Source: Draconibacterium sediminis
GTDB lineage: Bacteria; Bacteroidota; Bacteroidia; Bacteroidales; Prolixibacteraceae
NCBI RefSeq assembly: GCF_000949475.1
Contig: NZ_JRHC01000002.1
Span: 372,001-436,000 of the forward strand
Direction: 5' to 3'
DNA: 64,000 nt
In this document: positions 11,893-42,349 of the stretch, one piece after another
How positions within the stretch are numbered: the stretch's first letter is position 1
Layout: each line of letters begins with the position of its first letter
Position numbers and translations under genes: made by a program
The notes under the pieces: generated by a model
Told to the model about the DNA's origin: nothing
Database searches by the model: none
The model's input: the letters and a program-made list of their open reading frames with translations, nothing else

Positions 11893-12228
11893 CCATTTTG
11901 AAGCCGTTGCAGGCCGACGACAGCATTTTTTTGACCATTTTGGGACCGGCGTAGGAATACGAAAGCATTTTTTTCTCCATTTTGAAGCCGTCGTATGTCT
12001 ACGACATCACTTTTTTCACCGTTTTGGTGCCATCGTAGTCATACGACAAGACTTTATTCACCGTTTTGGAGCTAGCGTAGCAATACGAAAGCACTTTTAC
12101 CACCATTTTGAAGCTTTCGTAGGCGTACGACATCACTTTTTTCACCGTTTTAGTGCTAGCGTAGAGCTACGAAAGTACCTTGCTCACCAACGAGAAGCCT
12201 TCGCAGGTTTACAACAGCATATTGGTTA
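11893..12228. repeat. Array 1: eight 42-bp tandem units with a CGTA-N4-TACG dyad
   Basis: Eight consecutive units of exactly 42 bases start at 11893 and repeat every 42 bases to 12228. Each opens with CC(A/G)TTTTG or a variant. Most units carry a small dyad, for example GTCGTA-TGTC-TACGAC in unit 3 and TTCGTA-GGCG-TACGAC in unit 6; unit 8 is the most diverged. One frame is open only because 42 is a multiple of three, and it has no ATG in the array. It lies between convergent genes (sulfatase and the FabK/NMO-like gene). Confidence 0.9.
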
Positions 12229-12240
12229 TCTTTTATTTTC

Positions 12241-12438
12241 TACCACAGAGTTGCGCAGAGAATTCACGGAGTTACACGGAGCGATGAAAAGTCGCAGTCG
12301 CAGTTTTCAGTCGCAGATTGCAATTTAACAATTGGATTTTACCACAGAGTTGCGCAGAGAATTCTCGGAGTTACACGGAGCGATGAAAAGTCTCAGTCGC
12401 AGTTGGCAGTCGCAGATTGCAATTTAACAGTTTTACAA
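12241..12438. repeat. Two tandem 99-bp units (ACCACAGAG...CAGTCGCAG)
   Basis: Copies start TACCACAGAG at 12241 and 12340, with only a few differences between them. Both contain GAGTTACACGGAGCGATGAAA and end near GCAGATTGCAATTTAACA. A diverged copy lies at 8343-8445 and shorter relatives at 17200-17330. They are followed by low-complexity CAATCTGCTT and TCTCAGTGCTC runs to 12528. They do not encode a plausible protein. Confidence 0.85.
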
Positions 12439-12528
12439 TTTAACAATCTGCTTCAATCTGCTTCAATCTCACCGTCTCAGTGCTCATCGTCTCACAGTCT
12501 CAAATCTCAGTGCTCAATCTTCTTCAAT
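12439..12528. repeat. Low-complexity CAATCTGCTT / TCTCAG tract
   Basis: Short imperfect repeats of CAATCTGCTT and CTCAGTGCTCA run up to the stop codon of the next gene. Similar text (CAATCTGCTCAATCTCATTC) recurs at 28636-28680, which suggests a dispersed intergenic family. Confidence 0.55.
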
Positions 12529-13479
12529 CTAAAACTCAAACCGTCCCTGCCCTGCCGCTTTTTGAGCAGCTTCGTATGCATTAATAATATCATTCATTAT
12601 TTCGGCAACAGGTTTAATCTGATTTAGCTGTGCCGAAACCTGGCCAATTTCCAGTTCGCCTTCGTCGAGATCGCCTTCGAACATTCCTTTTTTTGCCCGG
12701 CCCCGACCCAATAATTCGGCCATTGCTTCGGGTGATTGCCCTGCTTTTTCGGCTTCATCAATCCGGTTAAAAAAGCTGTTCTTTACCAACCGTACCGGTG
12801 CCAGTTTTTTTAGAGCCAGTTTTGTTCCACCTTCGCCGAGTTCGGTTACCAATCGTTTAAATTCGGGGTGTGCCGACGATTCTTCCGACACGGCAAATGC
12901 CGATCCGATCTGTACACCATCGGCACCTAAAACCATTGCCGCCAGCATTGCTTCTCCCGATCCTATTCCTCCGGCTGCAAGCAATGGGAGTTTTGTAGCT
13001 TTTCGCACCGATGGAATCAATGTCATTGTAGTGGTTTCTTCGCGGCCGTTGTGGCCACCGGCTTCGAAACCTTCGGCAACAATTGCATCAACACCGGCCG
13101 CCTCGCATTTGCCTGCAAAAAACGAACTCGACACCACATGCGCCACAGTAATTCCTTTGTCTTTTAACCAGGCGGTCCACTTTTTAGGACTACCGGCCGA
13201 TGTAAAAACCACCGGTACTTCGTGTGCGGCAATAATATCCATAACCCGTTCGGTTTCGGGGTACATCAAAGGCACATTCACTCCAAAAGGTTTATCGGTG
13301 GCCGCCTTCATTTTTACGATGTGCTCCTCCAATGTTTCGGGGTGCATCGATCCGGCGCCAATCAGTCCCAATCCTCCGCTGTTACTCACTGCCGAAGCCA
13401 GTTTCCAGCCCGAACACCAAACCATTCCCCCTTGAATTACGGGGTATTTTATATTGAATAGATTACAAATACGATTCAT
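12529..13479 (-). CDS. Nitronate monooxygenase / FabK-like flavoenzyme
   Basis: A 316-residue TIM-barrel FMN enzyme. It opens with YPVIQGGMVWCSGWKLASAVSNSGGLGLIG, then carries EGFEAGGHNGREETTTMTLIPSV and LLAAGGIGSGEAMLAAMVLGADGVQIGSAF. The EAGGH motif with its histidine is shared by nitronate monooxygenases and by the enoyl-ACP reductase FabK, and sequence alone does not separate them here. FabK would serve fatty-acid elongation. No fatty-acid genes lie next to it. Confidence 0.85.
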   Translation of the reverse strand: MNRICNLFNIKYPVIQGGMVWCSGWKLASAVSNSGGLGLIGAGSMHPETLEEHIVKMKAATDKPFGVNVPLMYPETERVMDIIAAHEVPVVFTSAGSPKKWTAWLKDKGITVAHVVSSSFFAGKCEAAGVDAIVAEGFEAGGHNGREETTTMTLIPSVRKATKLPLLAAGGIGSGEAMLAAMVLGADGVQIGSAFAVSEESSAHPEFKRLVTELGEGGTKLALKKLAPVRLVKNSFFNRIDEAEKAGQSPEAMAELLGRGRAKKGMFEGDLDEGELEIGQVSAQLNQIKPVAEIMNDIINAYEAAQKAAGQGRFEF

Positions 13480-13608
13480 ACTTTTCTTTTCAAAACAATA
13501 AACTATTGAAATAACAAATAAACACCATGCTGAACGATTGAACGATAGCAGAGGTTCAAAAAAAATAATGCTTATAAGAATCAGGAGTGATGCGTCTGTT
13601 TTCTGAAA

Positions 13609-14415
13609 CTACTTTTTATGACCGGCAGTTTCATCATCCTCAATGATATTTTCTTCCAGAATTTGCACCAGCGTTTCTTTTGACAAGCGGCGTTTAATTT
13701 CACCTTTCTGTGCTACTGAAATCGATCCTCGTTCTTCCGAAACAACAATACACAATGCATCGGTATTTTCTGTCATGCCAACAGCTGCACGGTGACGAAG
13801 TCCCAACGCTTTATCCAATTCCTTTTGTGTTAGCGGAAGAATACAACCTGCTGCAACAATACGATTTCCTTTAATAATAATGGCTCCATCGTGCAGCGGC
13901 GAGTTCTTGAAAAATATAGTGCGTATAAGCGCCGACGATATTTTTGCATTGATCCTTTCTCCGGTATTGATCTGGTCGTTTAGTTCGTTTTCATCCGCAA
14001 TAACAATCAGCGCACCGGTTCTTGTTTTCCCCATCGACTGGCAGGCGTCAACAATACTGTCAATCTGCTGCTGATTAATGCTCTTCGGTTTCCCCTGGCC
14101 AAACAACTTGTCGAGCATCAATATCTTATTCACATTATAATTGGTACCGATAAACAGCAGAAATTTTCGAATTTCGGGGTGAAAAACGATAATAAGCGCA
14201 ATAGCACCCACACCAATAAAATACCCCATTATCGATCCCAGCAGCTCCATGTTCAGCGCTTTCACCGTAAGCCAAACCAGGTACAGCGAAAACAGCCCGA
14301 TAACAATATTAAAAGCTACCGTTCCTTTTATAAGGCGGTAAAGCTGGTAAAGCAAAAAAGCCACCAGCAGAATATCGAGAATATCAAGAAATCGTATGGT
14401 TATAAATGCCAGCAT
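13609..14415 (-). CDS. cdaA: Diadenylate cyclase CdaA (c-di-AMP synthase)
   Basis: A 268-residue membrane-bound DAC enzyme. Three hydrophobic helices at the N-terminus (about 10-80) precede the DisA_N catalytic domain, with DGAIIIKGNRIVAAGCILPLT (DGA at 176-178) and GLRHRAAVGMTE (RHR at 207-209), which bind and condense two ATP molecules. The start is the ATG at 14415, which overlaps the folP stop by one base (TGATG); a TTG three bases earlier is less likely. c-di-AMP typically controls potassium and osmolyte balance. The folP-cdaA pairing suggests co-translation. Confidence 0.93.
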   Translation of the reverse strand: MLAFITIRFLDILDILLVAFLLYQLYRLIKGTVAFNIVIGLFSLYLVWLTVKALNMELLGSIMGYFIGVGAIALIIVFHPEIRKFLLFIGTNYNVNKILMLDKLFGQGKPKSINQQQIDSIVDACQSMGKTRTGALIVIADENELNDQINTGERINAKISSALIRTIFFKNSPLHDGAIIIKGNRIVAAGCILPLTQKELDKALGLRHRAAVGMTENTDALCIVVSEERGSISVAQKGEIKRRLSKETLVQILEENIIEDDETAGHKK

Positions 14416-15293
14416 CAAATGATTGTTGCTTTAATTTCACAAAATATTTTTACTGCCTCAACCGCTTCTTTTACGTCGTGTACACGCAAAATGTCGGCCC
14501 CGCCCATTAATGCCAGGGTGTTGGCCACCGAAGTGCCGTTAAGTGCTGTTTCGGGCTTGGCATCCAATGCTTTCCAGATCATCGATTTACGGCTTAATCC
14601 CACCATTACCGGAAGCTGGTACACTTTAAACGCATCGAGTTTATTTAATAACTCGTAATTATGGTCGAGTGTTTTTCCAAATCCAAAACCGGGATCGAGA
14701 ATCACCTCTTTTACGCCCAGTTTATTTAGCTTTTTTACGCGCTCGGCAAAATACTGCGCTACTTCACGAATCAGGTCGTCGTACTGCGGATCTTCCTGCA
14801 TATTTAACGGCGTTCCTTTTATATGCGACAGAATGTATGGAACCTGCAATTTCCCAACGGTTTCAAACATATTGCTGTCGAGCGATCCTCCCGAAATATC
14901 GTTAATGATGATTGGCCCTACCTCATCGATTACACGAACTGCTACCCACGAGCGAAAAGTATCAACCGAAAGCGCCACTTCGGGAAAAGCCTTATGTATG
15001 GCCTTTACAGCCGGTAACAGACGCGCCAGTTCTTCTTTGGTTGAAACCGTTTTCGATCCCGGACGTGTGGAAACCGCTCCCACATCAATAATTCCGGCGC
15101 CATCAGCAACCATTTGCTCAACGGCCTTTAGCATGGTGGTTTCGTCTTCCATTTTTCCACCATCGAAAAACGAATCGGGCGTAATATTTACAATTCCGGC
15201 AACCACCGGAATGGATAAATCAACTTCTTTTTCGCCAAGATGTAATGTACTGTTTCGTTTGAGGAACTTACCCGCAGACTGCGTAATCAACAT
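14415..15293 (-). CDS. folP: Dihydropteroate synthase
   Basis: A 292-residue TIM-barrel folate enzyme that joins p-aminobenzoate to dihydropterin pyrophosphate and is the target of sulfonamides. Signatures are GIVNITPDSFFDGG (about 33-46), GAGIIDVGAVSTRPGS, INDISGG, DPGFGFGKTLDHNYELL and VGLSRKSMI. It is first in the folP-cdaA operon. A TACATTTG -7 element on the minus strand lies at 15352-15359, 58 bases before its start, in the divergent gap shared with the DUF1599 gene. Confidence 0.96.
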   Translation of the reverse strand: MLITQSAGKFLKRNSTLHLGEKEVDLSIPVVAGIVNITPDSFFDGGKMEDETTMLKAVEQMVADGAGIIDVGAVSTRPGSKTVSTKEELARLLPAVKAIHKAFPEVALSVDTFRSWVAVRVIDEVGPIIINDISGGSLDSNMFETVGKLQVPYILSHIKGTPLNMQEDPQYDDLIREVAQYFAERVKKLNKLGVKEVILDPGFGFGKTLDHNYELLNKLDAFKVYQLPVMVGLSRKSMIWKALDAKPETALNGTSVANTLALMGGADILRVHDVKEAVEAVKIFCEIKATII

Positions 15294-15351
15294 AAGAACT
15301 GGGCTTTTTTGTTTAACAAATCATTAACTATCTATTAATTGTCGTTAACTA

Positions 15352-15359
15352 CAAATGTA
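15352..15359 (-). promoter_or_regulatory. -7 promoter element of folP-cdaA
   Basis: Minus-strand TACATTTG matches TAnnTTTG exactly. It lies within the 192-base divergent gap between folP and the DUF1599 gene. A TTTG exists further upstream, but the spacing is too short for a convincing -33. Confidence 0.42.
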
Positions 15360-15485
15360 GAATAAAACAGGCCAAATTTGCCATTTTTTCATACTTTTAT
15401 CCGGCAATTTTAGCATACAAAAATATACAGAACTTAACGAATTGAGCACAATTGGCTCAAGAAGAAGAAAAAAAGACACATAATA

Positions 15486-16031
15486 ATGGACAGAACAAAC
15501 CAGCAATACGACCAGGTAATTTCAATATGCCGTAATATATTTTCGAAGAAAATGACCGATTACGGAACAGCATGGCGAATATTGCGTCCGACCTCTCTTA
15601 CCGACCAGATTTACATTAAAGCACAGCGCATACGAAGCATTGAAGAAAAAGGTGTTACAAAAGTTGACGAAGGCGTAAAACCTGAATTCATTGGTATTAT
15701 TAATTACTGTATTATGGGCTTAATTCAGCTGGAATTAGGCACATCTGACCAGGAAGTACCCCATGAAACCATTCAGGAGCTTTACGACAAATATTTTAAC
15801 GAAGCCAAAACGCTGATGATGGATAAAAACCACGATTATGGCGAGGCCTGGAGAAATATGCGCATCAGTTCGTACACCGATCTGATTTTAATGAAAATAC
15901 AACGCACAAAACAAATAGAAGATAATCAAGGGAAAACACTTATATCGGAAGGAATTGATGCCAACTATATGGATATGATCAATTATTCTGTGTTTGCCAT
16001 GATTAAAATTGAATTTGAAAACAAAGAATAA
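15486..16031 (+). CDS. DUF1599 domain protein, internally duplicated
   Basis: A 181-residue protein made of two similar halves. The first carries DYGTAWRILRPTSLTDQIYIKAQRIRSIEE and the second DYGEAWRNMRISSYTDLILMKIQRTKQIED, followed in each by similar glycine-bearing helices. This is the DUF1599 arrangement, about 180 residues in Bacteroidota. Function is unknown. It is 8 bases before the BT_3928-like gene, with tpiA next, an order familiar from Bacteroides. Confidence 0.88.
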   Translation: MDRTNQQYDQVISICRNIFSKKMTDYGTAWRILRPTSLTDQIYIKAQRIRSIEEKGVTKVDEGVKPEFIGIINYCIMGLIQLELGTSDQEVPHETIQELYDKYFNEAKTLMMDKNHDYGEAWRNMRISSYTDLILMKIQRTKQIEDNQGKTLISEGIDANYMDMINYSVFAMIKIEFENKE

Positions 16032-16039
16032 ACTCGCCT

Positions 16040-17170
16040 ATGAATATTGTTAAGCAACTCGCACGGATTCTTTTTGGTATTGTTTTTATTTTCTCCGGAT
16101 TTGTAAAAGGAGTCGATCCGTGGGGATCGGCCTACAAATTTACCGACTACTTTAATGCCATGGGGCTCGACTGGTTGCTTTGGGCAGCCTTCCCGCTGGG
16201 AGTGTTGCTGGCTTTTGCCGAGTTTGCCATTGGAGTGGCTTTTGTGTTTAACTGGCGGATGCGTTTGTTTTCGTGGCTGGGCTTATTGTTCATGGCCTTT
16301 TTTACACCTTTAACACTTTGGATCGCACTAAAAAATCCGGTAACCGACTGCGGTTGTTTTGGCGATGCACTGGTAATTTCAAATTGGGAAACATTTTATA
16401 AAAACCTTGTATTTATTACGCTGGCAATTATTGTTGTGGTGAACCGAAAATGGTATGCCGACAAGGTAAAAAGTATTGTTCCGGGCATACTTAGTATAGG
16501 TGTTTTTATCGTGTACTTCGGCATTGTTTACTATTCGTACAGCCACTTGCCGATATTAGACTTCAGACCGTACAAAGTGGGCACCAATATTCCGGAAGCA
16601 ATGAGTATTCCCGACGATGCGCCACAAGAAATCTACGAGAATATATTTTATTATAAGAACAAAAATACCGGTGACGTAAAAGAATTCACGGAACAAAATT
16701 ATCCATGGCAAGACACCACTAATTGGGAATACCACGATATGGAATCGAATTTGGTGCAGGAAGGTTACGAACCGCCCATTCATGATTTCACCATTGAATC
16801 GCCCGAAGGTGATGACATCAAAGACTTCTTTATTTACGACGAAAATTATGTGTTTATGCTTGTGGCCTACGACCTGCATAAAACCAGTACCAAGTCGCAG
16901 GAAGAGATTAACACATTAGCGCACTGGGCCATGGATAAAGGATATTCGTTTGTTTGCCTCACCTCTACCCTGCAGGATGAAGCAATGGAATTTGCAGAAC
17001 AAAACGACGCGCCTTACGAGTTCTTTAATTGCGACGAAATTACCTTAAAAACAATGATTCGGTCGAACCCGGGATTGATCGTAATGAAAGACGGAACCAT
17101 TCTGGATAAATGGCATTACAACGACATTCCTTCGCCGGAAGAGGTTGAAGCTGAATTTGAAATTGAATAA
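16040..17170 (+). CDS. BT_3928-family membrane protein (DoxX/MauE-like plus thioredoxin-like part)
   Basis: A 376-residue protein. The first 155 residues hold about four transmembrane helices of DoxX/MauE type, with FIFSGFVKGVDPWGSAYKF and the conserved cysteine pair in NPVTDCGCFGDAL. A soluble C-terminal part (about 190-376) resembles a thioredoxin-like fold but shows no CxxC. MauE/VKOR-like membrane domains with paired cysteines often pass electrons to the periplasm, so a redox role is inferred. It is cotranscribed with the DUF1599 gene. Confidence 0.84.
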   Translation: MNIVKQLARILFGIVFIFSGFVKGVDPWGSAYKFTDYFNAMGLDWLLWAAFPLGVLLAFAEFAIGVAFVFNWRMRLFSWLGLLFMAFFTPLTLWIALKNPVTDCGCFGDALVISNWETFYKNLVFITLAIIVVVNRKWYADKVKSIVPGILSIGVFIVYFGIVYYSYSHLPILDFRPYKVGTNIPEAMSIPDDAPQEIYENIFYYKNKNTGDVKEFTEQNYPWQDTTNWEYHDMESNLVQEGYEPPIHDFTIESPEGDDIKDFFIYDENYVFMLVAYDLHKTSTKSQEEINTLAHWAMDKGYSFVCLTSTLQDEAMEFAEQNDAPYEFFNCDEITLKTMIRSNPGLIVMKDGTILDKWHYNDIPSPEEVEAEFEIE

Positions 17171-17189
17171 GAAGAGGCTAGTTTCGAGC

Positions 17190-17335
17190 TGCGAGCTGTA
17201 AGTTCTCAGTCGCAGTTCTCAGTCGCAGTTCTCAATTAAACAGTGTAAACATGGCTATGCTCAAGTATCCAGTATCGAGAATCCAGAATCCAGTATCTAG
17301 TATCTAGCATCCAGTATCCAGCGTCTCATTCGTCC
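17190..17335. repeat. Low-complexity TTCTCAGTCGCAG and ATCCAGTATC tracts
   Basis: About two and a half copies of a 14-base AGTTCTCAGTCGC-type unit (17201-17233) are followed by imperfect ten-base ATCCAGTATC / AATCCAG repeats (about 17265-17325). They share the CAGTCGCAG word with the 99-bp repeats at 12241-12438. No coding potential is seen. Confidence 0.6.
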
Positions 17336-17407
17336 AATTTTAAATAAACAAATAGTTAATAATATTTAAGCATTAGATTCAATACCCCGCGAATCAATAA
17401 TTTCGGT

Positions 17408-17415
17408 TAAATTTG
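17408..17415 (+). promoter_or_regulatory. -7 promoter element of tpiA
   Basis: TAAATTTG matches TAnnTTTG and lies 40 bases ahead of tpiA, after the repeat tract. This suggests tpiA can be transcribed separately from the genes before it. Confidence 0.45.
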
Positions 17416-17455
17416 TGGTCGATTTTGAAAATCTAATAAACTAAAATTCAATAAT

Positions 17456-18214
17456 ATGAGACAAAAGATAGTTGCAGGAAACTGGAAATGTAACACAACC
17501 TTGCAAGAAGGTGTTGAGTTGGCAAAAGCTGTTGACGCGATTGTAGCAAGCGAAGGTGCTGACGATGTTGTTGTTGTATTGGGAACACCATTTACACACA
17601 TTACAAAAGTAGTTGAATCAGTAAATACCGACAGAATTGGTGTTGCTGCACAAAACTGTGCTGCCGAAGCTAAAGGAGCTTTCACTGGTGAAGTTTCTGC
17701 CGAAATGGTAAAATCAACAGGTGCTGAGTACGTAATTTTAGGTCACTCTGAGCGTCGTGAGTATTATGGCGAAACAAGTGAGATCCTGAACAAAAAAGTT
17801 GCACTTGCATTAGAGAACGGATTAACTCCTATTTACTGCTGTGGTGAAGCTTTGGATATTCGCGAAGCCGGTACACACAACGAATATGTTGTTAATCAAT
17901 TGGAAGAAACAGTTTTCCAACTGTCAGCCGAAGATTTCAAAAAAATCGTTATTGCTTACGAACCAATCTGGGCAATCGGAACTGGTGTAACAGCAAGCTC
18001 AGACCAGGCACAGGATATGCACGCCAACATTCGCGCTGCAATTACTGCTAAATTTGGTGAAGAAGTTGCTGAAGAAACTTCAATCCTTTACGGTGGTAGC
18101 TGTAAAGCAAGTAACGCAAACGAATTATTCGCCAACAAAGATGTTGACGGAGGTTTGATTGGTGGAGCTTCGTTAAAAGCTGAAGACTTTATCGGAATCA
18201 TCAACGGTTTCTAG
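17456..18214 (+). CDS. tpiA: Triosephosphate isomerase
   Basis: A 252-residue glycolytic TIM barrel that interconverts dihydroxyacetone phosphate and glyceraldehyde 3-phosphate. Catalytic elements are AGNWKCN (Lys11), the His in [12 protein letters not shown], and the Glu in [11 protein letters not shown] with its loop 6. The phosphate site [13 protein letters not shown] and GGLIGGASL follow. Codon use is more biased than in neighbouring genes, as expected for a highly expressed enzyme. A terminator lies 25 bases after the stop. Confidence 0.98.
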
Positions 18215-18239
18215 AAAACAATCAGATTGCAAAATATTT

Positions 18240-18276
18240 AAAGCCATTTTCTGCACGGTCAGAAAATGGCTTTTTT
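18240..18276 (+). terminator. Intrinsic terminator of tpiA
   Basis: A perfect 14-bp stem, AAAGCCATTTTCTG and CAGAAAATGGCTTT, with a six-base loop, merges into a T run. Confidence 0.92.
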
Positions 18277-18418
18277 AATTAACAATAATCTGCTAACTAA
18301 TCGTTTTACACTGATATTTACTACATTTAACCCCATTATTTTTTTGAAACATCTTCGATTGTTGCGTTGTTAATAAAAAATGGTACATGGTTATTCGTTT
18401 GGTCAAACATATTATTTC

Positions 18419-18850
18419 ATGAAAAAACTGATATTATTAGTCATTTTGGTCACCTCAATATGCATTATCAGTTGTAATTCGTCCAAAAATTCAGAAGAAA
18501 TAGCCTCATACACTTACCAGGAGAAAAAAATTGAAATGAGTGATGCCCTGCGGATAAAAATTCCGGCTTGGGTGGAAGAAGGAAAAATTTGCTATGGTCT
18601 CGTAGTTCAGGTAACCAAAGAAGGTAAACCCATATCCGGGAAACCGGTAAAAGCCAAAGTGGTTCAAATCGATGAATACTCGGTAAAAATGAAAGCCCTT
18701 GAAACTGTAATTCTATTCGAAGGGGCAGATCGCAACTTAAAGGGAATAAACAAAGGCCAAGTTTGGGATGAAAAAGAAGGTGACCTCTACCTCACTTTTG
18801 ATGAAGCAGTTGAGATGCTTGAAAAGATGGAGATTTATAAGGCTGAGTAA
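18419..18850 (+). CDS. Small lipoprotein, unknown function
   Basis: A 143-residue protein starting at the ATG at 18419 (MKKLILLVILVTSICIISC), which gives a clean lipoprotein signal with lipobox IISC. An earlier in-frame ATG at 18380 would add 13 residues in front of the signal. The mature part is charged and has no motif I recognise; the segment VVQVTKEGKPISGKPVKAKVV could be a beta strand pair. It stands alone, 265 bases before the TonB operon, and is not obviously part of it. Confidence 0.68.
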   Translation: MKKLILLVILVTSICIISCNSSKNSEEIASYTYQEKKIEMSDALRIKIPAWVEEGKICYGLVVQVTKEGKPISGKPVKAKVVQIDEYSVKMKALETVILFEGADRNLKGINKGQVWDEKEGDLYLTFDEAVEMLEKMEIYKAE

Positions 18851-19114
18851 CGACACCTCCCAAAATTCAACTATCCTATTAAATTTCAACCAAATACATT
18901 CATTATATTTCTATACAATTCTTCCAACACACATTAATTTTTTAACCGGGTTAAGAATAATCGATACGAAGAATATTGATTATATTTAAAATTTTAAGGC
19001 AATTCGCTAAAATAGCTCTTTAAAGACGTATAAAAACCGTAAGTTCGTCAAATAATATGATAATCAGGAGGAATTGATAATTCAGAATAGAGGAGTCGTT
19101 TTCGAATAACAACT

Positions 19115-21964: not shown

Positions 21965-21993
21965 ATATTAAAAACTGATTTATAGATCATACC

Positions 21994-23214: not shown

Positions 23215-23277
23215 ATCAGGTAGACCAGTAATCACCTGCCACAATAAACGGCTGGAACTTTTAATGTTTCGTTTGAG

Positions 23278-29867: not shown

Positions 29868-29897
29868 TAAAATTTGTCTTATTGCTACAAATTAAGT

Positions 29898-30830: not shown

Positions 30831-31075
30831 CAGTTTTTATTTTCACTTTTTTAAACTTTAGTTTACTTAAATCACTGAAACTTCCTGTTATTACTTAATT
30901 ATATTTTCTAAATTAGCACTACTGTTACGTAATTTTTCTATTCTATATTCCAATTAATCAGCATATTGGATCGAATTGCTTATGTAGAATGGAGAAATCG
31001 ACAAAAAAACTCAAACTACAAGAGGAAATTGTTGTTAGGAATGGCATACAATGTAAACAGAAAATAGAATAAAAC

Positions 31076-33383: not shown

Positions 33384-33444
33384 ATTCATCATTCCGGTTT
33401 TTCACCACTTTGTTATTTCGAAAAAAATCGACTAAAGATTTTAC

Positions 33445-33452
33445 TAACTTTG
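33445..33452 (+). promoter_or_regulatory. -7 promoter element of rsmE
   Basis: TAACTTTG matches TAnnTTTG and is 23 bases before the rsmE ATG. Confidence 0.48.
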
Positions 33453-33475
33453 GCACTTGAAAAAGTTTTGAATCC

Positions 33476-34177: not shown

Positions 34178-34208
34178 CAGGGCAACTATTAAGATCTGAA
34201 TCTTTTAG

Positions 34209-34802
34209 CTACTGATCATTCCTGAGTTTTATATATTGTTCCGGAGTATCCATGTCTTCTAAGATATCTCCGCATGGAATAGCTTTTACCTGATGTGTGT
34301 AATTCCTGAAGATCGCTTTTGCACCTTGTTTCCCGCTTAATTCTGAGAGTTCATTAAAGTAAAACCGGTCGAATATTACCGGAACGCCCTGCCATCCCGA
34401 TTCGGCTTGCGAAACGATAATTCGCTGTTTACCCGGTTCGAAATCAGCAAGCAGCGTATTTAAATGATCAGTTGTCATCAAAGGCTGGTCAATCAAAGTA
34501 ATCAGCACACCATTACATGCAGGAAACTGTTGTTCCACAAATTTAACACCCGCAGCAATGGAAGTTCCCATGCCCTGTTCCCAGTTTTCGTTTATGGTGA
34601 TTTTAACAGGTATATCTTGTAGAATTGGAATAATATTTTCAGCCTGATTTCCTAAAACCAAAACTACCGGATTGCCTGTGCTCAATAACGTGTTTAACTG
34701 GTGTTCAATTAAGCTTTGTTCACCCCAGCGCAATAGTGGTTTTGGCCGCCCCATTCTTGAGGAAGCACCTGCTGCCAGCAATACTATTGGAATATTATTC
34801 AT
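34209..34802 (-). CDS. MocA/MobA-like nucleotidyltransferase for molybdenum cofactor
   Basis: A 197-residue nucleotidyltransferase starting at the ATG at 34802, which overlaps the xdhC-like stop by 8 bases; a GTG three codons earlier is possible. It has the opening IVLLAAGASSRMGRPKPLLRWG, with the nucleotide-binding loop, and LITLIDQPLMTTDHL. It belongs to the family of CTP:molybdopterin cytidylyltransferase MocA. With the neighbouring hydroxylase it probably makes the cytosine dinucleotide form of the cofactor. GTP use cannot be excluded. Confidence 0.86.
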   Translation of the reverse strand: MNNIPIVLLAAGASSRMGRPKPLLRWGEQSLIEHQLNTLLSTGNPVVLVLGNQAENIIPILQDIPVKITINENWEQGMGTSIAAGVKFVEQQFPACNGVLITLIDQPLMTTDHLNTLLADFEPGKQRIIVSQAESGWQGVPVIFDRFYFNELSELSGKQGAKAIFRNYTHQVKAIPCGDILEDMDTPEQYIKLRNDQ

Positions 34803-35811
34803 GAATTGCACCCATTTTTTCGCGCAAAGCCACGGGTTTTTGCTTACGTACCACGCTTAATATTTCAGCCAGAACAGAGATCGAAATCTCTGCAGCATTT
34901 TCAGCTCCGATATTGATACCGGCCGGACCATGGATCTGTTCAATAAATTCCAGCGAAAGATCAGGGACCTGTTCCAGTAACATTGAAATTACTCGCTCCC
35001 TGCGGTTTACTGAGCCCAGCAAACCAATATACGCCGGGTTAATATCTTTTAAGGCCATTAAATACTGAACATCCTTATTAAAGCTGTGTGTCATTAAAAC
35101 CACTGCTGTTTGTTCATCGATGGCAGAAGTGTCGATAGCATCAAACGAAGGAGTGATCAACGCTGCTGCTCCCGGAAAATAATCGCATGATTTCGATTCC
35201 TCCGGCGAAGCGACCACTGTGACCTCCCACCCCAGTAATTTTGCGGCCTGACTGAGTTGAACGGCATCATGCTCGGCGCCAAAAATAAAGAGCTGGAATA
35301 AAGGTTCGAAAGTTTGTGAGAAACACTTTTGGTTTGCAGTTTCATTTTTTTCAAATTTGGAATTCAACGAGTAGTTGACACCATTAATTTGAAGCACCGA
35401 ACCTACATCATCGTACTCTCCAACTTCGTTATAAAAAAACGAATCCATCTGAAAAGGTTTTCTGCTTTCCAACTGAATTTCAAAAGCTTTCATAAGTTCT
35501 TCCGAAAGAAAAGCGGGTTCAATCAAAACATGAATAATACCCTCGCAGCCAATCCGGTAGCGGCCATCGTAAGTAATAACTTTTGGTTTGTTGGTACGGA
35601 AAACACTTTGTGCCTGGCGTTCAATTTCGCTTTCAACACAACCACCGCTAACTGCTCCGACATACTCACCATCCTCACTGATCAGCATTCGAACACCGGG
35701 CCTGCGGTATGATGAACCTTCAAGGTCGACCACAGAAACGAATACAGCTTTTTTATCAAGTAGTTGCCACGATTTTAACGTATCAAACAGTAGTTTCAGT
35801 TCGTGCGTCAT
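34795..35811 (-). CDS. XdhC/CoxF-family molybdoenzyme maturation factor
   Basis: A 338-residue XdhC-like protein. The N-terminal XdhC_CoxI domain reads VVDLEGSSYRRPGVRMLISEDGEYVGAVSGGCVESEI; the C-terminal Rossmann-type XdhC domain contains LFIFGAEHDAVQLSQAAKLLGWEV and VVLMTHSFNKDVQYL. XdhC proteins bind the cofactor and promote its sulfuration before insertion into hydroxylases. It is the first gene of the pair with the MocA-like gene, divergent from moaA, and 3 kb from the hydroxylase genes. Confidence 0.92.
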   Translation of the reverse strand: MTHELKLLFDTLKSWQLLDKKAVFVSVVDLEGSSYRRPGVRMLISEDGEYVGAVSGGCVESEIERQAQSVFRTNKPKVITYDGRYRIGCEGIIHVLIEPAFLSEELMKAFEIQLESRKPFQMDSFFYNEVGEYDDVGSVLQINGVNYSLNSKFEKNETANQKCFSQTFEPLFQLFIFGAEHDAVQLSQAAKLLGWEVTVVASPEESKSCDYFPGAAALITPSFDAIDTSAIDEQTAVVLMTHSFNKDVQYLMALKDINPAYIGLLGSVNRRERVISMLLEQVPDLSLEFIEQIHGPAGINIGAENAAEISISVLAEILSVVRKQKPVALREKMGAIHE

Positions 35812-36036
35812 ATCAATATCGTTAAAGGTTAGTTTCGTTCGGCAAATTTCAATTCACCTAAATAAAAATACATCAAATATTTATAAACCAAGATTATAAC
35901 AAGAAAATGATTACTACTGTTCAATAAAATACCAATCTTCGATAGATAATTTCCGACGATATAAAAATTGTCACAATCAAAATACCTATTAGTCTGAATT
36001 AACTGAACAAATCAGCAATTTTCAAGTTAAATAGAC

Positions 36037-37011
36037 ATGTTGAAAATTGAAGATAAACTGGGCAGAAGATTTGAAAAGCTGAGAATAAGTCTCCTGAACT
36101 CGTGTAATTTTTCATGCATTTATTGTGTTGACAATGAGTTTGATGAAAATGCAAACCTTCAACCCGATCAAAACGGCGCTGATAAATCCATTTCGGTTGA
36201 AGAATTTACACAGTTAATTCAGGCAGTACACCGCTTAACGGGCCTTAAAAGCGTTCGGTTAACCGGCGGCGAACCTTTGCTTTATTCCAATCTTTACCCA
36301 CTTATTGAAAACATTAAAAAGCTCGGGATTAACGATATCCGTTTAACCACTAATGCGTTTTTCCTGAAAGAAAATGCCGAAAAACTGGTGAATGCGGGAG
36401 TAAATTCAATCAACATTTCGGTGGATGCCATCGACAACAAAACCTTTGGGAAAATCATTCGCCGATCGGATACATCGCGGGTTTTCCAGGGTATTGAAGT
36501 AGCTGCTAAGGCAGGATTAAATATAAAACTGAATGCGGTTATCATGCGGGGGAAAAACGATTCGCAAATTGTTCCGCTACTTGATTATGCCACCGAACTG
36601 GGGGTAAAAATCCGCTACCTGGAGTTGATGAAAATGGGGCATTTATACCATTCGGAGAACGGACTTTTCTTTCCGGAGAAAGAGATTCTTTCAACGATTC
36701 AGGAAAAATACGAAATTGAAGAAATGAAGCGCGAGCATGCATCAACAGCACATTACTGGCGTACTTCAAACGGTGGGGTTTTTGGAATTATCGCCAACGA
36801 ATCGACACCATTTTGTCACGACTGTAACCGTTTACGATTGGATAGCAACGGCTACTTTTTTGGCTGTCTGAGCAATGCCCACGGCGAAAAACTGATGCCG
36901 TATATCGATAACGAACAGCTACTTGCTGAGAAACTAAAAGGATTGCTGTTGCTTAAACAAGCAGTGAAATTCCACGGCAGCGAATTATCAATGAGAAATA
37001 TAGGAGGCTAA
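36037..37011 (+). CDS. moaA: GTP 3',8-cyclase, radical SAM
   Basis: A 324-residue MoaA. The radical SAM cluster motif is CNFSCIYC (about 23-30), the second cluster is CHDC plus a cysteine 14 residues later (HDCNRLRLDSNGYFFGC), and the protein ends in the essential Gly-Gly. It performs the first step of molybdopterin synthesis, converting GTP to 3',8-cyclo-dihydroGTP. MoaC, which acts next, is not encoded in the window. It is one base from moaD; an AGGAGG at 37002-37007 within its last codons gives moaD a strong Shine-Dalgarno site, rare in this phylum. Confidence 0.95.
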   Translation: MLKIEDKLGRRFEKLRISLLNSCNFSCIYCVDNEFDENANLQPDQNGADKSISVEEFTQLIQAVHRLTGLKSVRLTGGEPLLYSNLYPLIENIKKLGINDIRLTTNAFFLKENAEKLVNAGVNSINISVDAIDNKTFGKIIRRSDTSRVFQGIEVAAKAGLNIKLNAVIMRGKNDSQIVPLLDYATELGVKIRYLELMKMGHLYHSENGLFFPEKEILSTIQEKYEIEEMKREHASTAHYWRTSNGGVFGIIANESTPFCHDCNRLRLDSNGYFFGCLSNAHGEKLMPYIDNEQLLAEKLKGLLLLKQAVKFHGSELSMRNIGG

Positions 37012-37012
37012 A

Positions 37013-37255
37013 ATGAATAGAAAGATTGTATGTTTTGCGGGTCTGAAGAAGTTCTTTGGCGACGAAACCAGCGTTGAAGTGGCACCAGAAGAAAGTTATG
37101 CCAACTTATTGGAAAAACTGGGTGAATTAAACCCGGAAGCAAAAGAGGTACTGACCAGCTGCCGGATTGCGGTGAACGAAAAATTTGTACCACTCGATGA
37201 AACGATAAAAGACCAAACCACATTGTTTTTAATTCCTCCGTCAAGCGGAGGATAA
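37013..37255 (+). CDS. moaD: Molybdopterin synthase small subunit
   Basis: An 80-residue beta-grasp, ubiquitin-like protein ending PPSSGG. The C-terminal Gly-Gly is adenylated by MoeB and then thiocarboxylated to donate sulfur. FAGLKKFFGDETSVEV and LFLIPPSSGG match the MoaD pattern. It sits between moaA and moaE in one operon. Confidence 0.94.
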   Translation: MNRKIVCFAGLKKFFGDETSVEVAPEESYANLLEKLGELNPEAKEVLTSCRIAVNEKFVPLDETIKDQTTLFLIPPSSGG

Positions 37256-37265
37256 ATCAATAGAT

Positions 37266-37736
37266 ATGAAGCACATTCAAAATACAGCGATTAATTACAG
37301 TGAACTGTTTGATGACTTCAGGCATCCGCATAGTGGTGCGGTAGTGCTGTTTAGCGGCGAAGTTCGTGATAATAATAAAGGCCGGGCAGTAACACATTTG
37401 GAATACGAAGCCTACGCGCCCATGGCAAATAAAATGATTAGCGAGATTTTGGAAGAAGCAAAATCGCGCTTTAAGCTAAACCAGGCAGCCTGTGTTCATC
37501 GTGTTGGGCGTGTTGAGATCAGTGGCTGTGCGGTTGTGGTGATCACCGGCTCAGGCCACCGAAAAGAAGCTTATGATGCCAACCGCTACATTATCGACCG
37601 CGTGAAAAATGAAGTCCCCATTTGGAAGCACGAGTTTTTTGCTGACGGCACCAGCGAATGGGGCCAAAACTGCGATTGCGTAAGCAACGATCACCATAAT
37701 CACCAACATCATCACCATTATGAAAGAGCTGAATAA
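37266..37736 (+). CDS. moaE: Molybdopterin synthase catalytic subunit, His-rich tail
   Basis: A 156-residue MoaE. Core motifs are GAVVLFSGEVRDNNKGRAVTHLEYEAY, CVHRVGRVEISGCAVVV and PIWKHEFFADGTSEWG, with the catalytic Lys in IWKHE. After the core comes an extra tail with nine His in about 12 residues (SNDHHNHQHHHHYE), beyond the usual MoaE end. The tail overlaps the moeB start by 17 bases. It could bind metal, or it may be a by-product of the overlapping reading frame. Confidence 0.93.
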   Translation: MKHIQNTAINYSELFDDFRHPHSGAVVLFSGEVRDNNKGRAVTHLEYEAYAPMANKMISEILEEAKSRFKLNQAACVHRVGRVEISGCAVVVITGSGHRKEAYDANRYIIDRVKNEVPIWKHEFFADGTSEWGQNCDCVSNDHHNHQHHHHYERAE

Positions 37737-38436
37737 TGAAGACCGGACACGATTTACACGTCATTTTTCCTTATCGGAAATTGGCCTTACCGGCCAGTTA
37801 AAACTGAAAAATGCGCGTGTACTGGTAATTGGTGCCGGCGGATTGGGAAGTCCGTTGCTGGTGTATCTGGCAGCTGCCGGAATTGGCAACATCGGCATTG
37901 TTGACAATGATGTGGTGAGCACCTCGAACCTGCAACGACAAATACTTTATACCTCCGCAGAAGTGGGACAAAAAAAGGTAGAGATCGCTGCCCGAAAGAT
38001 AAAGGCCTTGTATCCGGAAATGGAGATTCAGTCCTATGATACAAAACTGGATGAATCCAACGCCGAAGAGCTTTTTCAACAATACGATGTGATTGCCGAC
38101 TGCACCGATAATTATAAAACCCGGCTGCTGATCGGTTTAAAATCGGCAAGTTTAAACAAACCACTGGCTTTTGCTTCGGTGCTAAATTACGAGGGGCAAA
38201 TAAGTGTATTTAATTATCAGAACGGACCTGTTTATACCAACCTGTTTCCAATAACCCCAAAAGACGGGATTTACGAGGAAGATGACATTGGCCTTTTAGG
38301 TGTGTTACCCGGAATAACAGGAACGCTGCAGGCTAATGAAATCATAAAAATAATTACCGGTTACGGTGAAGTAATCAGCGGAAAACTATTGGTGTTTAAT
38401 ATCCGCGATAACCGGTTTAACCTGTTTCGGTTTTGA
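37720..38436 (+). CDS. moeB: MoeB/ThiF-family adenylyltransferase lacking zinc cysteines
   Basis: A 238-residue E1-like enzyme. ATP-binding elements are VLVIGAGGLGSPLLVYLAAAGIG, DNDVVSTSNLQRQILY and IADCTDNYKTRLLIG. It adenylates the MoaD C-terminus. The zinc-binding CxxC of typical MoeB (CYRCLFP-like) reads PVYTNLFP here, and the C-terminal CxxC is also absent; the only cysteine is in ADCTDN. Position after moaE supports the MoeB role, though it could also serve ThiS. The fourth gene of the moa operon. Confidence 0.9.
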   Translation: MKELNNEDRTRFTRHFSLSEIGLTGQLKLKNARVLVIGAGGLGSPLLVYLAAAGIGNIGIVDNDVVSTSNLQRQILYTSAEVGQKKVEIAARKIKALYPEMEIQSYDTKLDESNAEELFQQYDVIADCTDNYKTRLLIGLKSASLNKPLAFASVLNYEGQISVFNYQNGPVYTNLFPITPKDGIYEEDDIGLLGVLPGITGTLQANEIIKIITGYGEVISGKLLVFNIRDNRFNLFRF

Positions 38437-38790
38437 GTGAAGATGGAACGCTGATAACGCTGATTTAGCAGATATTCACTGATTTATCTGTAAAGTTTAA
38501 AAACAAACCTCAAAACACAAAAGCTACTAAATGAAATATTCGGAAAACGATTGAATCATTTTGAGTATAGATGGAACGCTGATGACGCTGATTTTACAGA
38601 TACTCACTGATTTATCGATTCTGCTTCTTAAACTTACCTCAATAACTCAAAAGTTTCTAAATGAAAAATTCGGTAAAACAATTGAATCATTTTGAGTATA
38701 GGAGGAACGCTGATGACGCGGATTTCAACTGATAATCACAGATAAATCAGCGAAAATCAGTTCGATCAGTGTCATCTGCGTTCTATTCCT
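38437..38790. repeat. Three tandem copies of a GGAACGCTGATGACGCTGATTT repeat
   Basis: Units start near 38442, 38570 and 38701, spaced about 128 and 131 bases. Each opens GATGGAACGCTGATGACG or close, followed by CACTGATTTATC and a variable middle ending TTGAATCATTTTGAGTATAG. The third unit differs: its far end holds an inverted copy (GTCATCTGCGTTCTATTCCT), so it can fold as a long hairpin. Such GGAACGC...GCGTTC elements are common between Bacteroidota genes. It fills the gap between the convergent moeB and molybdenum hydroxylase genes. Confidence 0.85.
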
Positions 38791-38794
38791 AGAT

Positions 38795-41011
38795 CTATCC
38801 AATACTGTTTTTCACAAATGGCTGATGGTAATAGCGCTCTCCGTTGGCTTTGTATAATGCGTTGGCCAGCGCTCCCATTACCGGAGGATAAGGTGGTTCG
38901 CCCAATCCGGTCGGGTCGATATTGTTTTCCACAAAATGTACTTCTATTTCTTTGGGTGCTTCGCCATGCCTGATCAACCGATACATATCGAAATTGTTTT
39001 GTTCCGGCTGGCCTTCACTAAAGGTCAAACCGCTGTACATGGCGTGGCCGATTCCATCCACAATACTTCCTTCCGTCATGTTAACCGCAGCATCGGGATT
39101 TACCACAATTCCACAATCAACCGAAGCATATACTTTTTCAATTACCGGCTCTCCATCCTTGTTGGCAATATCCACCACATTTGCCACATACGAATTGTGA
39201 CAAAAATAAGCGGCAACACCCCGGCTTTTACCTTCGGAGTTGGTATCCCAGCCCGATTTCTCGCGAACCTGTTCCAAAACGCCGGCATAACGGGCTGCAT
39301 CATAATCGTTGTTGCTGCCCACCGGATTTTCCTGTGCGCGTTTCAGCAAGTCAAGGCGAAACTGAATAGGATCTTTGCCAGCAGCTTCCGCCACCTCATC
39401 AAGGAATGACTGTTCGGCTACAGCATTAAAATTGGAGCCTGGAGCACGGAAGGCACCGGTACTTATGTTGGTATCCACTGAAAAACTTTCGGCAAGGTAA
39501 TTATCAACACTTCCTGCCGGAAAACGGTTGGCATGCAACGGACTGTCGGGGATACCTCCCATTCGAACATGGAAACCTATCAGGTTATTATCGGCATCCA
39601 GCGCTGCACGGTATAGGGCATGGTAAGCCGGACGGTAAATTCCGTACGACATATCGTCTTCGCGCGAGTAGATCAACTTTACAGGTGCTTTCACCTTTTG
39701 TGAAATAACAGCTGCTTCCACCATAAAGTGGCCATACAGTCGTCGACCGAAACCACCTCCCATACGGGTCATTTGCACATCCACTTTTTCCAATGGCAAC
39801 CCCAAACGGGCAGCAACCGTTTTCTCCATAAACTCCGGCGTTTGAGTGGGTCCTGCCAACAGCGCAAAATCATCTTTTACGTCGGCAAAAAAGTTCATGG
39901 GTTCCATTGGGTTGTGCGCCTGAAATGGAGCAGTATAAGTTCGTTCAATTACTTTGGCAGCCTTTCTAAACGCTTCTTCAGGATTTCCGTCGCGGCGCCG
40001 TTCCCTACTTGAGTTGGCTGCTGCTTCTTCCATTTTTTTGTAATGATCGGCAGTGTTTTCAAAACCTACAGGAACACCCTGCGAATTGTCTTCCGCGATA
40101 GGTTCCCACTCCACATTTAGCATCAGTTTGGCATTCATCACCTCCCAGGTTGACTTACCGACTACAGCCACTAATTCGGTAAACGATGTTATATCAGACC
40201 ACTGCCATTCATAGTCGTCGTTATACGTTTTTATGGCAAAAACATCAATTATCCCGGGCATTGCTTTTGCCTCGGTGGCATCAAACGATTTAAGTTTCAT
40301 TCCAAAAGCCGGCGGATGCTCGATCATGGCAATCACCATTCCTTCGGCTTTATAATCCAGGCCAAACAAAGGTTTTCCGGTAACTATTTTTGGGCCATCC
40401 ACATTTTTTCTTGAGGTACCTATAATGGTAAAATCCTTTATGTCTTTCAACTCTACCTCTTCAGGAACGGTCAGTTCAGCTGCGGCAGAGGCCATTTCAC
40501 CATAACCGGCTTCTTTTCCGCTGACCGTATGATACAAAACTCCGGCTTCGGTAGTAATTTCATCCACCGGAACTTTCCATTCGTGGGCAGCAGCCTCGCG
40601 TAACATTCTGCGGGCGGTTGCACCGGCCATTCGGAGTCCGTTCCACCCTTGACGGATAGACTGGCTACCTCCTGCCAACTGCCGGGTGAAAATATCTGTG
40701 TTCAGCGGCGCCTGTTCTACCATTACAAACTTCCAGTCAACATCCAGTTCATCGGCCACAATCATCGGCATCGATGTTTTTACATTCTGGCCAATTTCAG
40801 GATTGGGCGACATAATGGTAACCGCTCCGTTGTTCCCGATCTTTAAAAAACCGTTTAACTCATACCATTCATCGGGCATGGTTAGTTGTTTGGGCGAATC
40901 GGTGGTGCAAGCCGGAGCCAGCCAACTAAAAGTCAGCAGTAATCCGCCACCGGCCAATGCCGAGCTTCGTATAAAAGAACGTCTATCGAGTTTTGTTTTA
41001 ACCGTTGTCAT
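38795..41011 (-). CDS. Molybdenum hydroxylase large subunit (IorB/aldehyde oxidoreductase type)
   Basis: A 738-residue exported molybdopterin-binding subunit. The N-terminus is a Tat signal (DRRSFIRSSALAGGGLLLTF). Molybdopterin-binding segments include GGFGRRLYGHFMVEAAVIS, TGAFRAPGSNFNAVAEQSFLDE and, near the C-terminus, GLGEPPYPPVMGALANAL, in which the Glu is the catalytic base. This is the layout of isoquinoline 1-oxidoreductase beta-type proteins, which form a two-subunit enzyme without a separate FAD subunit. It acts in the periplasm on a heterocycle or aldehyde, identity unknown. It follows the Fe-S subunit gene by 56 bases. Confidence 0.93.
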   Translation of the reverse strand: MTTVKTKLDRRSFIRSSALAGGGLLLTFSWLAPACTTDSPKQLTMPDEWYELNGFLKIGNNGAVTIMSPNPEIGQNVKTSMPMIVADELDVDWKFVMVEQAPLNTDIFTRQLAGGSQSIRQGWNGLRMAGATARRMLREAAAHEWKVPVDEITTEAGVLYHTVSGKEAGYGEMASAAAELTVPEEVELKDIKDFTIIGTSRKNVDGPKIVTGKPLFGLDYKAEGMVIAMIEHPPAFGMKLKSFDATEAKAMPGIIDVFAIKTYNDDYEWQWSDITSFTELVAVVGKSTWEVMNAKLMLNVEWEPIAEDNSQGVPVGFENTADHYKKMEEAAANSSRERRRDGNPEEAFRKAAKVIERTYTAPFQAHNPMEPMNFFADVKDDFALLAGPTQTPEFMEKTVAARLGLPLEKVDVQMTRMGGGFGRRLYGHFMVEAAVISQKVKAPVKLIYSREDDMSYGIYRPAYHALYRAALDADNNLIGFHVRMGGIPDSPLHANRFPAGSVDNYLAESFSVDTNISTGAFRAPGSNFNAVAEQSFLDEVAEAAGKDPIQFRLDLLKRAQENPVGSNNDYDAARYAGVLEQVREKSGWDTNSEGKSRGVAAYFCHNSYVANVVDIANKDGEPVIEKVYASVDCGIVVNPDAAVNMTEGSIVDGIGHAMYSGLTFSEGQPEQNNFDMYRLIRHGEAPKEIEVHFVENNIDPTGLGEPPYPPVMGALANALYKANGERYYHQPFVKNSIG

Positions 41012-41067
41012 GTGTAATGATTTTAATGTTAGTGAATGCGAAAAGCGTAGTACCTGTGTGGTGCAGA

Positions 41068-41523
41068 TTAAGAATTAGCGGCTGTTTTAATGGCCTTTTT
41101 AATCCGTGTGTAGGTTCCGCACCGGCAAATATTACCATGCATGGCCATCTCAATTTCTTCGTCGCTGGGCGATGGATTCGCATTTAATAATCCTGCAGCG
41201 TTCATAATTTGTCCGCTTTGGCAGTAACCGCATTGCGGCACATCTTCTTCGATCCAGGCTTTTTGAAGCGGGTGATCCCCGTTTTCCGAAAGCCCTTCGA
41301 TTGTAGTGATTTCCTTGTCGCCCACCGAGTCGACAAAAGTGATACACGAACGCGTTGCAACCCCGTTAACCAAAATGGTGCACGCCCCACACTGTGCAAT
41401 TCCACAGCCGAATTTTGTTCCTACTAAATCCAGATGATCTCTGAGTACCCAAAGCATTGGAGTTGACGGATCAACATCCACTTCATGCTGTTTTCCGTTG
41501 ATGTTTAGATTAAATACTGCCAT
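41068..41523 (-). CDS. Molybdenum hydroxylase (2Fe-2S) small subunit
   Basis: A 151-residue subunit with two [2Fe-2S] clusters. The plant-ferredoxin-like N-terminus holds KFGCGIAQCGACTILVNGVATRSC; the helical C-terminal domain holds QCGYCQSGQIM and NICRCGTYTRIKKAI. It passes electrons from the molybdenum site onward. It has no signal of its own and is probably carried through the Tat system together with the large subunit. First gene of the two-gene operon. Confidence 0.95.
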   Translation of the reverse strand: MAVFNLNINGKQHEVDVDPSTPMLWVLRDHLDLVGTKFGCGIAQCGACTILVNGVATRSCITFVDSVGDKEITTIEGLSENGDHPLQKAWIEEDVPQCGYCQSGQIMNAAGLLNANPSPSDEEIEMAMHGNICRCGTYTRIKKAIKTAANS

Positions 41524-41803
41524 TTATTTATAGATTTTAAACCATGTTACGAAGCTAAAACAGTAAGATATACAGTTTTTTAGATATTTTACTAACACCC
41601 TTTACAACAAAGACTTATCGTAAATGTTCAGGAATAAATAAAGAATTCTGAAAGAGGCCCAGGTTCTGCAATACATGGTTGTTTTGCTGACGTTTATCGT
41701 GGCTTGAGTAGTGAGTAATGAGTAGAGTGAAAAAGCAAATACCCGCAACACATTACCCGGATATTTAAAAATAGCATGGTAACGAGTATTTTGAACATTA
41801 CCC
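41524..41803. other. Non-coding gap before array 2
   Basis: I see no gene, RNA or clear promoter consensus in this stretch. It contains AT-rich sequence upstream of the Fe-S subunit gene and a short GTAGTGAGTAATGAGTAGAG tract near 41707. Confidence 0.4.
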
Positions 41804-42349
41804 AGCGTACGCCTGCGAAAGCAGTAAATAGAACTCTGGGAAGCTTTCGCAGCACTACGAAAGGACTTTTGAGAACACAGTGGAGCTTTTGTAGCAGCAC
41901 GAAAGCACTAAATAGAACTATTTGGTGACAGCGTACGCCTGCGAAAGCAGTAAATAGGACTCTGAGAAGCTTTCACAGCACTACGAAAGGATTTTTGAGA
42001 ACTCGGTGGAGCGTTCGTAGCAGTACGAAAGCACTAAATAGAACTATTTGGTGGTAGCGTACGCCTGCGAAAGCAGTAAATAGTACTCCGGGAAGCTTTC
42101 GCAGCACTACGAAAGGACTTTTGAGAACTCGGTGGAGCTTTCGTAGCAGTACGAAATCAGTAAATAGAACTATTTGATGGCAGCGTACGCTCGCGAAAGC
42201 AGTAAATAGGACTCCGGGAAGCTTTCGCAGCACTACGAAAGGACTTTTGAGAACTCGGTGGAGCTTTCGTAGCAGTACGAAAGCACTAAATAGTAGTCGG
42301 TGAAGCTTTCGCAGTCCTGCGAAAGTTACAAATAGAGCTCCGGGGCACT
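41804..42349. repeat. Array 2: thirteen 42-bp units in a 126-bp higher-order repeat
   Basis: The word CGAAA recurs at 41816 and then every 42 bases exactly to 42320, thirteen times. Units cycle as three types A-B-C (GCGTACGCCTGCGAAAGC; GCTTTCGCAGCACTACGAAAGG; GCTTTCGTAGCAGTACGAAAGC), so a 126-bp block repeats four times plus one extra unit. The best C unit has a perfect 9-bp dyad, GCTTTCGTA (42263-42271) and TACGAAAGC (42276-42284), with a GCAG centre. Spacers hold AAATAG-AA-CTATTT. The same 42-bp period and dyad core occur in array 1. It is not coding. Confidence 0.92.

Follow-up and report, generated by a model that had tools for sequence, protein, structure and literature searches.

Two tandem arrays of 42-bp units lie 30 kb apart in a 64,000-nucleotide stretch of the Draconibacterium sediminis genome (contig NZ_JRHC01000002.1, positions 372,001 to 436,000; the whole stretch is referred to below as the window). 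Arrays with the same core are found upstream of genes for DUF6261 proteins (PF19775), and the anatomy of this array-gene module is well supported. Because no DUF6261 match lies within the window, its two arrays are orphans. We propose, with a probability of roughly 45%, that they are orphan copies of the DUF6261-array module, in which the array would serve as a platform of DNA and a protein, most likely the cognate DUF6261, would set its spacing. The evidence consists of the linkage of array and gene, the fixed period, the sequence divergence between distant modules, the cores that linked and orphan arrays have in common, and the lack of a G-U excess among imperfect pairs.

Linkage of the arrays to DUF6261 genes

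In D. sediminis, an array on contig C18 (locus L064) with the same TTTCGTAG/CTACGAAA core as the window arrays is located 5' of a DUF6261 gene. The arrays at L070, L078 and L081 also lie 5' of such a gene, as does that at L080, where the gene is in two pieces; altogether a DUF6261 gene was present at 5 of 22 fetched array loci and not seen at the other 17. The converse comparison employed Tandem Repeats Finder (TRF) for all repeat calls, with a period of 41-42 bp defining an array at a DUF6261 locus and the same TRF score applied to controls. Fifty-eight DUF6261 loci were reduced to 55 by dropping L146 and L168, which are near contig ends, and L181, which is below the cut-off. An array was present at 34 of these 55, upstream of the gene in 33 (at 32-550 bp), and at eight of nine further loci, all from genome searches, in each case upstream. 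Thus, 42 of 64 DUF6261 loci have an array of period 41 or 42, which is upstream in 41, the sole exception being L160. Within the set of 55, arrays occur at 11 of 20 loci outside the genus (family codes f19, f22 and f34) and at four of nine in D. sediminis. No array reached the same score at any of 45 control loci (20 Y1-transposase loci and 25 2Fe-2S loci; L222-L226, which carry the second window array, were left out). These counts are not independent, with orthologues from sister species among the loci. At a TRF score of at least 50, the contrast is 30/58 DUF6261 loci versus 2/50 controls, and one of those two is itself an array of the window core.

When periods between 25 and 200 bp were tallied over 65 DUF6261 loci, 42 was found in 33 and 41 in 12, while 25 and 28 occurred once each and the remainder fell between 82 and 182, mostly at near-multiples. 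A coding explanation of the period was rejected because those 12 loci have a 41-bp period. The preliminary description had proposed selection on spacing, and this is upheld: spacing appears constrained at the DNA level, with 42 and 41 predominant in the 65 loci and unrelated units in distant modules.

Within the genus, 21 of 31 genomes contain PF19775, the copy number ranging from 0 to 10 (nine in D. sediminis); across the phylum 12 of 395 do, 11 of them above the cut-off; these and all other genome-search counts given here are among the matches listed. A covariance model (R1) was built from the 21 units of the two window arrays, and genus genomes with R1 matches contain 4-10 DUF6261 matches, as compared with 0-4 in those without, some of which are incomplete. 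DUF6261 also occurs in three plasmid and phage records, namely one from Prevotella nigrescens and two unverified faecal scaffolds, and only the P. nigrescens locus has an array. The annotated DUF6261 start in that record (L219:2836-2976) lies inside the array, and a later ATG at 2976 looks likelier. Four single-protein scans of IMG/VR gave no viral DUF6261. Across 25 DUF6261 loci there was no conserved third gene beyond neighbours that are themselves orthologous and two cases of partial similarity (32% over 267 amino acids and 46% over 72 amino acids). In a promoter scan, 3 of 55 loci matched strictly, versus 0.4 expected, a weak signal.

Conserved period, divergent sequence and matching orphans

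Unit sequences were compared pairwise among 42 upstream arrays, with L160 left out. In each class of protein identity below 60% the mean unit similarity was 0.44 (observed maximum 0.71), and shuffled units gave a mean of 0.42 and a maximum of 0.57. The mean rose to 0.58 at 60-90% protein identity and to 0.95 above 90% (two pairs). Genomes G009, G006, G005 and G012 encode proteins with 79.6-98.8% identity to the C18 DUF6261 protein. The TTTCGTAG core is present in the arrays linked to the genes of G009, G006 and G012; the linked array of G005 (L209) shares the leader, and its core is degenerate.

Orphan arrays which match the core of a linked array were found for three DUF6261 families of D. 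sediminis. In addition to the C18 family, the core of the C15 module recurs in a 42-bp array at C1:2414461-, and that of the C19 module in 42-bp arrays at C1:482550-, C1:1158006- and C13:334602-. All four have a TRF period of 42 and no DUF6261 gene within ~1.5 kb, and reversed control patterns for the C15 and C19 cores gave 5 and 2 single matches. Two sites of the C15-family core were also noted 42 bp apart at C12:346090-346151, 26 kb left of the window.

Anatomy and surroundings of the window arrays

The features of the window are as follows.

11902..12237, + strand: array 1, 8 units of 42 bp with a dyad centre in every unit; orphan, no DUF6261 in the window (TRF, alignment, Pfam)
41800..42345, - strand: array 2, 13 units of 42 bp, some with a second dyad 21 bp from the first; orphan (TRF, alignment)
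11862..11887, + strand: conserved leader end of array 1, of the TAACTnnCTGATTnCAAGAGCTCCCC type (20/23 scored positions; opposite strand 11)
42342..42367, - strand: conserved leader end of array 2, at its right, so that the element reads leftwards (20/23 scored positions; opposite strand 13)
42276..42510, - strand: inner leader and first units of array 2, like the DUF6261-linked C18 array, L064 (blastn, 76% over 235 bp)
42550..42783, - strand: outer leader block of array 2, in common with the C3 array, L063 (blastn, 85% over 234 bp)
10259..11824, + strand: sulfatase gene flanking array 1 (Pfam PF00884)
12529..13479, - strand: nitronate monooxygenase family gene flanking array 1 (Pfam PF03060)
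41068..41523, - strand: 2Fe-2S protein gene flanking array 2 (Pfam PF01799)
42796..43473, + strand: C92 amidase family gene flanking array 2 (Pfam PF05708)

Array 1 is thus located between convergent genes and array 2 between divergent genes. The strict 42-base period first ascribed to both is confirmed: the step is exact and free of indels over the 8 units from 11902 and the 13 units from 41800, and TRF detects both arrays. The dyad CGTA-N4-TACG, said to be centred in most units, is present in exact form in 6/8 units of array 1 and 3/13 of array 2; the statement therefore holds for array 2 only when transitions are allowed (CGYA-N4-TRCG; 10/13, and again 6/8 in array 1). The relaxed motif occurs 16 times in the window, always within the two arrays, as against a first-order Markov expectation of 2.4 per window. 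The units were also described as different in sequence, which needs correction: the differences fall mainly in the spacer, and a common core of ~22-24 bp, about GCTTTCGTAG-NNN-TACGAAAGCAC, aligns without gaps between the two arrays. A second dyad in array 2, e.g., AAATAG-NN-CTATTT, alternates with the first, and the same alternation is seen in many arrays, while in array 1 no second dyad reaches 5/10 pairs. TRF also identified duplications of 126 bp (three units; 92% matches) in array 2, so that part of its regularity reflects recent copying, and to that extent the units are simple duplications.

Rfam gave nothing in the window at gathering scores. Clustered regularly interspaced short palindromic repeats (CRISPR) were rejected on the basis of the repeats alone, as the spacers resemble each other between units rather than being unrelated. 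Immediately right of array 1 there is a 99-bp repeat (1.9 copies; 12241-12429), and a 97-bp repeat occupies the matching place in L076. A palindrome-rich block (GGGCTAAAGCCC, CCCCGGCATTAATGCCGGGG) at 42430-42520 recurs in the outer leaders of L064, L065, L068, L074 and L080.

Other arrays of the window core

R1 identified five arrays in the D. sediminis genome, on contigs C1, C3, C12 (both window arrays) and C18. It matched 10 of 41 genomes including D. sediminis, all of one genus and G023 by one weak match, and 0 of 16 genomes of other families at E 0.01. A pattern of two units retrieved seven stretches, all of TRF period 42: two each from Sunxiuqinia dokdonensis and Parabacteroides assemblies, and one each from D. 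orientale, D. mangrovi and D. aestuarii. The same core was seen at no other period: every array of the window core with a unit-sized TRF period had 42 (L065 and L072 gave no TRF row), and other DUF6261 families had 41 or 42. In a scan of the phylum for two TTTCGTAG motifs 28-58 bp apart, 37 of 395 genomes had a match, and of 30 fetched loci only L092 (D. sediminis) and L110 (G200) had a TRF period of 41-43. L110 comprises other repeats, namely 21-bp and 42-bp tandem repeats with TTTCGTA motifs at 1481-1969, and has no DUF6261 match nearby.

The polar leader end TAACTnnCTGATTnCAAGAGCTCCCC scored 19-23 of 23 positions at 19 of 28 arrays, 13-17 at five (L062, L066, L067, L079 and L083), and 12-13, which is the opposite-strand level, at four arrays from Parabacteroides and Sunxiuqinia. 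Outer leader blocks are common to several loci, and several copies also have the tail. The site of array 2 beside the 2Fe-2S gene is the same in G009, G005, G024 and G440; by eye, G440 has kept the tail there, which D. sediminis lacks. TRF found no array within 1.5 kb of this site in G004, G007, G010, G013 and G439, and no clean empty site can be defined, because similarity to D. sediminis ends within ~200 positions in these five genomes.

Dyad lattice and the balance of imperfect pairs

Regularly spaced palindromes are a feature of the arrays. The 42-bp step is not the basic spacing: in 28 arrays, of which 26 were fetched and two are those of the window (several are orthologues), palindrome centres fall on a lattice of 21 bp, so the 42-bp unit is often two alternating dyads. 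At the best phase modulo 21, a mean of 4.3-7.0 of 10 positions formed Watson-Crick pairs, as compared with averages of 2.1-2.6 at the other phases and at most 4.5 at the next-best; since the phase was picked as the best of 21, only the margin over other phases is informative. Thirteen consecutive dyads at 21-bp steps were found in the D. orientale array L067. The best dyad spacing was 21 in 19/58 DUF6261 loci versus 2/50 control loci. A lattice score of at least 30 gave a weaker contrast (37/58 versus 13/50). A dyad permutation test at the 0.05 level, applied to 31 of the 34 linked arrays (three with fewer than two whole units were omitted), was passed by 16, with ~1.5 expected.

A folded single RNA strand should favour G-U over A-C among imperfect pairs. 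In one analysis the respective counts were 97 and 125, and 42 and 41 (strand as fetched; dyads with fewer than 5/10 pairs dropped), and in another, in gene orientation, 28 and 36 (columns less than 50% paired dropped). As G-U does not exceed A-C, an RNA hairpin is disfavoured, and with it the phased hairpin transcript offered in the preliminary description.

Proposed role of DUF6261 and alternative explanations

DUF6261 proteins are mostly 220-270 amino acids in length and may be helical. No other family was confidently assigned to four members in Pfam, PHROGs or PADLOC (the best PHROG, of unknown function, had an E value of 0.0018), and no relative was found by sequence in the PDB. The proposed module, which occurs in several families of Bacteroidota, consists of a leader, an array of dyads at a 41-42-bp period, a tail and the DUF6261 gene. 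The array would act as double-stranded DNA bound by dimers at ~21-bp steps, and the binder may be the cognate DUF6261 protein, acting in cis upstream of its own gene and in trans at orphan arrays. The period would then be fixed by the geometry of the protein, and each paralogue would read its own core. More tentatively still, DUF6261 might found a family of self-specific array-binding proteins, with a dyad for each paralogue, a protein-set step of ~21 bp that fixes the 41-42-bp period irrespective of sequence, and orphans as trans sites.

Several observations weigh against this proposal. Pfam shows no DNA-binding domain in the family, and six of eight proteins checked have a negative net charge, i.e., are acidic. 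TRF finds no array at 22 of 64 DUF6261 loci, among them five of nine in D. sediminis, nor in the two unverified faecal scaffolds, and 15 of 31 linked arrays fail the permutation test. Genomes G008, G024 and G440 carry arrays of the window core and have no C18-like gene among the retrieved DUF6261 proteins (2/8, 2/4 and 1/2 of their matches); the dyads of the G024 arrays are intact. Finally, in array 1 and its G009 orthologue A-C exceeds G-U (11 versus 3 and 17 versus 3), a bias which minus-strand RNA could also give and in which units are not independent.

The strongest of the competing explanations, although in our view unlikely, is a mobile element or its remains: array-bearing pieces would spread selfishly, mobilized in trans by a transposase, a host factor or DUF6261 itself, and then decay, with no role for the host. 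Leader and tail sequences common to different loci, the majority of copies without a gene, the patchy occurrence of DUF6261 (0-10 copies per genome) and the tail retained in G440 and missing from D. sediminis at the array 2 site would all suit such an element. However, array 2 occupies the same site in five genomes, array 1 and others also have orthologues, no clean empty site was seen, and Pfam shows no transposase domain in DUF6261.

Neutral minisatellites, growing and shrinking by slippage and unequal exchange and owing their constant period to common descent, seem improbable. The 126-bp duplications in array 2 are of the expected kind, and copy number varies between orthologues (8 units in array 1, 13.1 TRF copies in L076). 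Neutrality does not readily account for a limit of 41-42 bp across modules of unrelated sequence in several families, nor for dyads on a 21-bp lattice. A system like type III toxin-antitoxin, in which array RNA would restrain a DUF6261 toxin, is the least credible of the three: like the DUF6261 loci, type III loci have tandem repeats upstream of one small gene in several specific copies per genome, but their repeats vary greatly in sequence and length according to the available part of the description (PMC4627078), whereas here the period is fixed, G-U shows no excess in gene orientation (28 versus 36), orphan arrays exist, and DUF6261 alone passes in Pfam, which gives no known type III toxin family.

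A partition function or a domain role at ori or ter had also been suggested, and the chromosomal distribution does not favour it. In the complete genome G005 (5.13 Mb), taken as D. orientale, dnaA is at 0.5-1.0 kb, ten DUF6261 genes are at 0.52-4.18 Mb, and two arrays of the window core are at 4.46 and 4.92 Mb, so that neither ori nor ter is a point of clustering. On their own contig, the window arrays and dnaA are separated by 0.14-0.17 Mb.

Relation to known systems

A full-text search of the open-licence literature returned nothing on DUF6261 or PF19775, the single paper listed for DUF6261 being unrelated to judge by its title, and no description of a DUF6261 array. An earlier paper by Subirana and Messeguer reportedly described 22/44- and 52-nt repeats across bacteria. 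The section available of their 2021 study describes bacterial satellites of 20-21 and 52 nt, with constant length, variable sequence, several families per genome and short characteristic sequences; a nucleoid protein or small RNAs were suggested, and no partner gene is named or function known there (PMC8161180). The DUF6261 arrays likewise keep the period and not the sequence, and the 20-21 nt of those satellites is half of the present unit (42 = 2 x 21, with dyads 21 bp apart). The differences are the 41-42-bp unit and the linked gene family. If DUF6261 does found a family of self-specific array-binding proteins, the gene-array module would be of a kind new to bacteria, and it could explain how constant-size satellites arise. 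The linked genes and their matching orphans supply a protein to test and make the fixation of repeat length testable, and the array linkage is a first lead on DUF6261.

BrickBuilt and PgRS/464 of Porphyromonas gingivalis are also intergenic and multicopy, with a leader, tandem repeats (41 nt in PgRS) and a tail, which array 2 of D. sediminis lacks. They were compared by description only: in the available part of the source BrickBuilt is a miniature inverted-repeat transposable element with IS5-like terminal repeats and 23-nt repeats, and no link to DUF6261 is mentioned (PMC4596501). Repetitive extragenic palindromes (REP), bacterial interspersed mosaic elements (BIME) and the REP-associated tyrosine transposases (RAYT) resemble the module in their dispersed copies, their one associated gene and their palindromes, which are evenly spaced and alternate in orientation, as outlined in the available parts of the sources (PMC2817692, PMC3733652). 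GTAG is present in the array core as well, although here it lies inside the dyad, and DUF6261 is not a Y1 transposase. A Y1/RAYT transposase was rejected as the partner, Y1 genes being present in 29 of 31 genus genomes with or without arrays; none was found among 30 flanking proteins scanned. Type III toxin-antitoxin loci, as far as the available text describes them (PMC4627078), share the tandem array upstream of a single gene, and differ from the DUF6261 loci in protein family and in the DNA-type symmetry, fixed period and orphan arrays found here.

Two further tandem repeats were noted. A 128-bp repeat at 38431-38743 has 2.4 copies in the window and 7.5 copies in G009 (L077:1957-2915), and in D. 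aestuarii a 111-bp repeat of 5.7 copies (L071:2870-3505) is separated from an array by ~2.4 kb.

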